Under the pieces are notes generated by a model. The model had not been told where the DNA came from. It did no database searches and saw nothing but the letters and a program-made list of their open reading frames with translations. This document shows positions 37,100-61,541 of a stretch of 64,000 nucleotides of DNA, one piece after another. Both the position numbers and the translations under genes were made by a program. The number at the start of each line of letters is the position of its first letter. The first letter of the stretch is position 1. Source of the stretch: Dialister hominis (GTDB lineage Bacteria; Bacillota; Negativicutes; Veillonellales; Dialisteraceae); assembly GCF_007164725.1 (NCBI RefSeq), contig NZ_AP019697.1:1709501-1773500 (forward strand), given 5' to 3'.

Positions 37100-37177
37100 A
37101 AAACTCCTGCCCCGGTTAAGGGACAGGAGTCATCAGCGCGAAGCGTTCGGCATATGCCCGGCGAACTCCATCGCCGT
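37100..37177 (-). promoter_or_regulatory. fluoride riboswitch with intrinsic terminator
   Basis: On the minus strand GGCGATGGAGTTCGCC (37175-37160) followed by GCTGATGACTCCTG (about 37137-37124) matches the crcB-motif aptamer, including its pseudoknot. The 3' aptamer strand CTCCTGTCCC is also the left arm of a terminator with GGGGCAGGAG and T6 (37131-37100). Fluoride binding should block termination and switch crcB on. Confidence 0.93.
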
Positions 37178-37194
37178 CTTTCTTAAGTGAGCTC

Positions 37195-60221: not shown

Positions 60222-60465
60222 CGTAACACCTCCTAAAAAAGACATTTCAAGTCCATTCTACCACAGAGCGCGGTCAAGAGAAATGAGAAAAGCATACGCT
60301 TTTTAAATTTCTTTTTCCAAAAAGACAGGAAACATCGGATTTCATTTGCCTTTTCTCCTATCCATGAATACCGCTTTCCCGATAAAATCATAGCATGTAA
60401 TGTAATTTCGATAATTCTTATCAAATTCTAATTGAAATATATTTTCAAAATCGAAAATTATATGA
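60222..60465. other. gene-free AT-rich upstream region
   Basis: Holds the upstream region of the MraY/WecA-family gene and the region before the small RNA candidate. Poly-A and poly-T runs are frequent; no other feature was recognised. Confidence 0.4.
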
Positions 60466-60620
60466 TATACTCTCTTTGAAGGCAAATCCGGATGTACGGA
60501 TCCTGATTTGTCCTCACAATTAGCAGCCTCTTACGTTTCTCACATAAGAGGTTCACTCCTTATATCCCTTTTCCTTTGTTTTATTTTTGGGGACCGGCGC
60601 GAACCGGTCCTCTTTTTCTT
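60466..60620 (+). ncRNA. candidate orphan structured small RNA
   Basis: An extended -10 (TGATATACT, TATACT at 60466-60471) precedes a gene-free stretch with three hairpins: SL1 60481-60512, 12 base pairs with one mismatch and a GTACGG loop; SL2 60527-60551, CCTCTTA/TAAGAGG; and a terminator 60591-60610, GGACCGG/CCGGTCC with a T-rich run. A pyrimidine-rich single-stranded region (60552-60590) lies between SL2 and the terminator. The transcript would be about 140 bases. No + strand gene follows, so it is not an obvious leader. It matches no class I know. Confidence 0.5.
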
Positions 60621-60756
60621 TGTCCAAAAGTTGATGAATCCTTCTTCCCATAACCTCCCCGTCATTGTTTTCGCTTTCTGATTGATGAATATGGATTTCT
60701 TTTATTTATTATTATCTACTATGTATAATATAAAGCAGGGATGTAAAAGAAATGCA

Positions 60757-60800
60757 AAAGGGCTGCAGCAGAATGTGAAATCATCCTGCTGCAGCCCTTT
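60757..60800 (-). terminator. terminator of the C26 hydrolase gene
   Basis: AAAGGGCTGCAGCAG and CTGCTGCAGCCCTTT pair perfectly over 15 bases around a 14-base loop. Confidence 0.85.
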
Positions 60801-60803
60801 CTT

Positions 60804-61541
60804 TTATTCTTCTATGCCCATATGTTTCAGGACTCTGTCCATGAAAGCGCGGAAGAGGGGGTCCATGGTTTCCGGGTCCATGTTTTCCGGATGCCACTGG
60901 ACGGCGGCAAGGAGGTCGCCTTCTTCGCTTTCGACGGCTTCGATGACGCCGTCTCTTGTCCTTGCGGCCGGGCGGAGGCCCTGGGCGAGTTTCTTGATGC
61001 CTTCTCTGTGGCGGGAGTTGACGTAGAGGCCCTCGCCTAAGATGTCCATCAGTCTTGTATCTTTCTCAACTTCGATATAGTGCGTCGCGATATTTCCCGG
61101 TGCTCTCTGCATGTGCTGGATGAAGGCGCCTGAATTCTGCGACTGCATGTCCTGCCAGAGGGTGCCGCCCAGAGCGACGTTCAGGATCTGCAGGCCGCGG
61201 CAGATGCCGAGGATCGGTTTTCCTGCCTTGATGCATGCCTGTATGAGGTCGATTTCGAACTTATCTCTCTTCTCATACGTCGGCCCGATGCTCCAGATCG
61301 GATCTTCATGGTAGAAGCGCGGCGTCGGATTCGGGCCGCCTGGAAGGACGAGGGCATCGAAGGTGCCGACGAGTTCTTCTGCTTCCGCATAGTCATTGTA
61401 TGGAAGGATTACGGGAAGGAATCCATTGCGTCCCAGCGCGTCGATCAAAGGTCTTGGCGCATAGTCCGCCATTTTCTGATTGATTGGCTTCATTTCAGCC
61501 AGAAGTGTATCGGCCGTAACGGCCACGATTGGTTTTCTCAT
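60804..61541 (-). CDS. gamma-glutamyl hydrolase-like class I amidotransferase (peptidase C26)
   Basis: A 245-residue protein of the PuuD family, which removes gamma-glutamyl groups such as from gamma-glutamyl-GABA. The nucleophile Cys is in ILGICRGLQILN, and the His-x-Glu pair in AVQWHPENM. LVLPGGPNPTP is the oxyanion segment. Start ATG 61541 follows GGAGG. No putrescine pathway gene is nearby, so the substrate remains open. A MarR-type gene lies upstream on the same strand, separated by a terminator. Confidence 0.88.
   Translation of the reverse strand: MRKPIVAVTADTLLAEMKPINQKMADYAPRPLIDALGRNGFLPVILPYNDYAEAEELVGTFDALVLPGGPNPTPRFYHEDPIWSIGPTYEKRDKFEIDLIQACIKAGKPILGICRGLQILNVALGGTLWQDMQSQNSGAFIQHMQRAPGNIATHYIEVEKDTRLMDILGEGLYVNSRHREGIKKLAQGLRPAARTRDGVIEAVESEEGDLLAAVQWHPENMDPETMDPLFRAFMDRVLKHMGIEE

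Follow-up and report, generated by a model that had tools for sequence, protein, structure and literature searches.

The element at 60463–60617 on the plus strand, from promoter to terminator, of the 64 kb stretch of Dialister DNA analysed here (the window) is very probably a genuine and so far undescribed gene for a stand-alone small RNA, since a homologue was found in a different genus of the same family (genome G007), with a conserved hairpin tip, compensatory changes in the stem and a shared type of promoter and terminator. These features support the stand-alone RNA of about 140 nt that a preliminary description of the window had proposed. Because the counterpart lies at the same locus and a metal-sensor-like site stands in the promoter, the comparison also suggests that the product may be a small RNA for coping with scarce metal.

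Architecture and gene setting of the element

The window comes from a genome of 2.41 Mb, whose family includes Allisonella histaminiformans. The candidate RNA occupies a spacer of 558 bases between a WecA/TagO-type glycosyltransferase gene (PF00953, 59109–60245, minus strand) and a Peptidase_C26 gene (minus strand, ending at 60804), and it sits upstream of and divergent from the glycosyltransferase gene in the window and in G007 alike. It carries its own promoter and its own terminator, and the plus strand downstream of it holds no gene in the window, where the following genes lie on the minus strand, just as the preliminary description had stated. Its further claim, that no coding frame runs along the RNA, was also borne out: the only plus-strand ORFs of at least 50 aa nearby, 60508–60681 and 60682–61026, look spurious, one crossing the terminator and the other running antisense into the Peptidase_C26 gene, so that among such ORFs no credible gene overlaps or follows the RNA on this strand. 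A long inverted repeat at 60756–60801, with 20 pairs counted and readable on both strands, resembles a terminator and would belong to the Peptidase_C26 gene on the minus strand. In two relatives, G005 (L031) and G004 (L033), repetitive sequence takes up the spacer before the glycosyltransferase gene, with the Peptidase_C26 gene inverted relative to the window.

The extended −10, the 12-pair hairpin, the second hairpin, the pyrimidine-rich linker and the strong terminator of the preliminary description were all located, with one boundary revised. The extended −10 promoter TGATATACT (60463–60471, plus strand) reads TG-A-TATACT, with TG at 60463–60464 and TATACT at 60466–60471, and no good −35 precedes it. 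Hairpin 1 (60477–60516, plus strand) has a core of 12 pairs at 60481–60512, as claimed, and 15 pairs when the outer UGA/UCA (60477–60479/60514–60516) is counted; its tip GATGTACGGATC (60491–60502, plus strand) presents the loop GUACGG. Hairpin 2 (60525–60553, plus strand) is present but slightly longer than the 60527–60551 given earlier. The pyrimidine-rich linker between hairpin 2 and the terminator contains the word CACTCCTT (60554–60561, plus strand), which is complementary to the Shine-Dalgarno sequence AAGGAGTG, and the intrinsic terminator (60589–60617, plus strand) consists of a 9-pair stem at 60589–60612 followed by the T-tract TTTTTCTTTG. This conserved anti-Shine-Dalgarno word and a candidate Fur-type operator before the RNA are features beyond those in the preliminary description.

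The predicted minimum free energy is −45.4 kcal/mol, compared with −29.3 ± 3.2 for 200 dinucleotide shuffles (z = −5.1), none of which was as stable. Fold stability alone cannot assign the strand, because the minus strand of the element folds nearly as stably; the strand is assigned by the promoter, the terminator and the G007 homologue. The RNA class, which the preliminary description had not recognised, has no match in Rfam 15 at the gathering score, with nothing credible at E ≤ 10. The sole Rfam match of the window at the gathering score is a fluoride riboswitch at 37117–37184 (minus strand).

The homologue in G007 and the distribution of the RNA

The sequences upstream of the glycosyltransferase orthologues were read in all 12 genomes of the family, and one counterpart was obtained, in G007, with ten of the 12 having no such RNA at this place. 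The G007 element comprises, in order, TATGTTATAAT, in register with TATGATATACT of the window, a hairpin with the tip GATGTACGGATC, a second hairpin unrelated in sequence to that of the window, CACTCCTT in the linker, and a terminator. The hairpin-1 tip (GAUGUACGGAUC in the RNA, 12 bases) is identical in the two copies. The G007 element folds with a z of −3.9, and a covariance model of the window element, run against the two loci with filters off, scored it at 16.2 bits. The structural alignment was taken from cmsearch because MAFFT alone misplaced the hairpin gap. In this alignment of two sequences, fitted to the window structure, all 15 pairs of hairpin 1 are kept in G007, five of them with both partners changed, and all nine terminator pairs are kept, three through double-sided changes. 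Since the pair counts come from an alignment fitted in this way, the flanks of the tip were also shuffled, and only 8/5,000 and 9/5,000 shuffles reached the stability of the real flanks. A conserved secondary structure is thus present across the two sequences, and conservation and covariation in relatives, on which the preliminary description had made its reading depend, were found in the form of this one homologue with its compensatory changes. Both elements stand at one and the same position next to the glycosyltransferase gene, which makes common descent by far the simplest way to read the comparison. That promoter, hairpins and terminator merely came together by chance, with no functional RNA, is scarcely credible; the absence from the locus in most of the family would agree with such an accident, but the fold z of −5.1 and a same-locus homologue with compensatory changes argue strongly against it.

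Searches further afield were dominated by negative results. DNA similarity searches in the genus, family and order yielded no homologues, and no equivalent RNA was found upstream of the glycosyltransferase gene in more distant relatives. Among 380 genomes of the class, G007 is the only one, besides the genome of the window, where the loop motif stands in this setting. Four of these 380 genomes contain the exact tip with GATT directly after it, and in the two further ones no such stem, promoter or terminator was seen around it. Other matches to the loop pattern, in 61 genomes of the order, the 380 of the class and viral contigs, were chance or coding sequence, bar the two copies, and the family-wide matches of the single-sequence covariance model were unrelated terminators and hairpins. 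As this model did not recover the G007 copy genome-wide and ten family genomes have no RNA there, the RNA is patchily distributed or fast-evolving.

It is very improbable that the element acts as the leader, or an attenuator, of a downstream gene that has been displaced, or that it leads into a mini-ORF in the tip (ATG TAC GGA TCC TGA, MYGS-stop). A flavin-reductase-like gene does lie on the plus strand 3′ of the G007 terminator, and the tip encodes MYGS in both copies (G007 translated by eye). However, the genes after the element in the window are on the opposite strand, the G007 gene is preceded by the terminator, and a comparison with the known leaders in Rfam gave no match. No good Shine-Dalgarno sequence precedes the mini-ORF, its length is unequal between the window and G007, and its third codon positions are unchanged as well.

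Candidate operator, linker word and proposed mode of action

A Fur-type box, scored over the 12 scored positions of the consensus TGATAANNNTTATCA, a motif recognised after looking, was observed before both RNAs. In the window, box A, CGATAATTCTTATCA (60409–60423, unstranded), matches at 11/12 and is the sole site of at least 11/12 in the 64 kb; this score arose in 145 of 20,000 shuffled versions of the upstream region. Box A lies upstream of the −35 region and not over it, and a weaker palindrome, TTGAAATATATTTTCAA (60432–60448, unstranded, 9/12), covers the −35 region at the position of the G007 box, as compared by eye. The G007 promoter carries TGATAATGCTTTTCA over its −35 region, also at 11/12, a score reached by 67/20,000 shuffles. 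The motif occurs at a metal-uptake gene in the family, as a perfect box precedes the Nramp metal transporter gene of the relative G011. The only perfect box of the window's genome, TGATAATTATTATCA (L262:1501–1515; G000:C1:67977–67991), has no convincing gene adjoining it in an intergenic stretch of about L262:1313–2098, and it might serve a further metal-regulated RNA or a small ORF. The boxes of Fur, PerR and MntR are alike, and the reader of the candidate operator would be a Fur-family or similar metal-sensing repressor.

It is possible, if doubtful, that the element is a trans-acting small RNA without metal control, answering to another signal, with the palindromes being chance products of AT-rich DNA or the site of another regulator. 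The box motif was recognised post hoc, the boxes before the feo operons of the family are weak (9–10/12), and the exact-seed target candidates (below) do not add up to a set of iron proteins, all of which would suit such a reading. On the other side, both promoters have the box and the ten relatives without the RNA do not, their best site upstream of the same gene reaching at most 9/12, and the joint chance of both boxes is about 2.4e-5, before allowing for the choice of motif. The candidate operator is supported statistically, and the odds that the RNA is metal-regulated appear about even.

The linker word, CACUCCUU in the RNA, lies single-stranded in the folds predicted for the two RNAs and is the complement of the Shine-Dalgarno sequence AAGGAGUG. 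A shared word of this length was found in 282/20,000 shuffled linkers, which makes the word suggestive only as a functional seed. The search for targets covered exact-seed sites alone, namely AAGGAGTG before ATG in the window's genome and in G007. In the former, the mRNAs with this word include those for biotin synthase, a CbiK-like chelatase and several transporters (named by eye); the genes are mostly unrelated, with biotin synthase the one Fe-S enzyme (by eye), and no clear iron regulon was seen among the mRNAs with the exact complementary word. Ribosomal protein L16 (named by eye) is the only candidate common to both genomes.

We consider the chances evenly balanced that the element is a metal-repressed, trans-acting small RNA that keeps ribosomes off its target mRNAs in the manner of FsrA, IsrR or RyhB. 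Under plentiful metal, a Fur-family or similar repressor would keep the extended −10 promoter off; a shortage would let the RNA of about 140 nt be transcribed. Hairpin 1 would shield the 5′ end and present the invariant tip, and the single-stranded linker would pair via CACUCCUU with the Shine-Dalgarno sequences of its targets, so that translation is blocked. The protein bound at the operator, expression under scarce metal, base-pairing and the identity of the targets are all inferred here. The invariant loop is not accounted for by the logic of FsrA, IsrR and RyhB alone; it may serve as a further seed or bind a protein.

The tip is the sole long invariant stretch, GGA lies within it in the window and CGGAU is kept in G007, all of which would fit an RNA that works mainly by binding a partner RNA or a protein at the tip of hairpin 1 (as a CsrA-type GGA-loop sponge would, for example) and not through the linker. 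Known CsrA sponges carry several GGA loops, as against one such loop per RNA here, and we regard this mode of action as quite unlikely. It is rather unlikely, too, that the RNA belongs to a new family confined to this lineage whose working part is the invariant GUACGG tip and not the linker, joining a metal-sensing promoter to a protein or RNA partner with no equivalent known among other iron-responsive small RNAs.

Significance and comparison with known regulatory RNAs

The Negativicutes are Gram-negative-walled Firmicutes that are common in the human gut and mouth. Our literature searches found nothing on the candidate RNA itself, no small RNA from Dialister and no iron-responsive one from the Negativicutes. 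If confirmed, the metal-repressed RNA proposed above would count as a first iron- or metal-responsive small RNA in the Negativicutes, unrelated by sequence to RyhB and FsrA, and would offer a handle on how these bacteria respond to metal shortage in the host.

The gltD, ldh2, ilvD and potE motifs are structured RNAs found in the Negativicutes (PMC8632094), and thus come from the same bacterial class as the Dialister RNA. Compared by description, they lie upstream of particular genes, whereas the Dialister RNA has no downstream gene. RyhB of enterobacteria shares the proposed logic, being metal-repressed and trans-acting, but the Dialister RNA matches no Rfam family. In form, the Dialister element resembles FsrA of Bacillus subtilis and IsrR of Staphylococcus aureus, Fur-regulated iron-sparing small RNAs (PMC11257911): it too stands alone, its promoter carries a predicted Fur-type box, and a single-stranded, pyrimidine-rich stretch could pair with ribosome-binding sites. 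However, no sequence relationship to either was found, the Dialister RNA has a different hairpin with an invariant tip, and it carries one CUCC word, compared with the three C-rich regions of IsrR (PMC11257911). The sequence family is new, while the kind of RNA is one already known.
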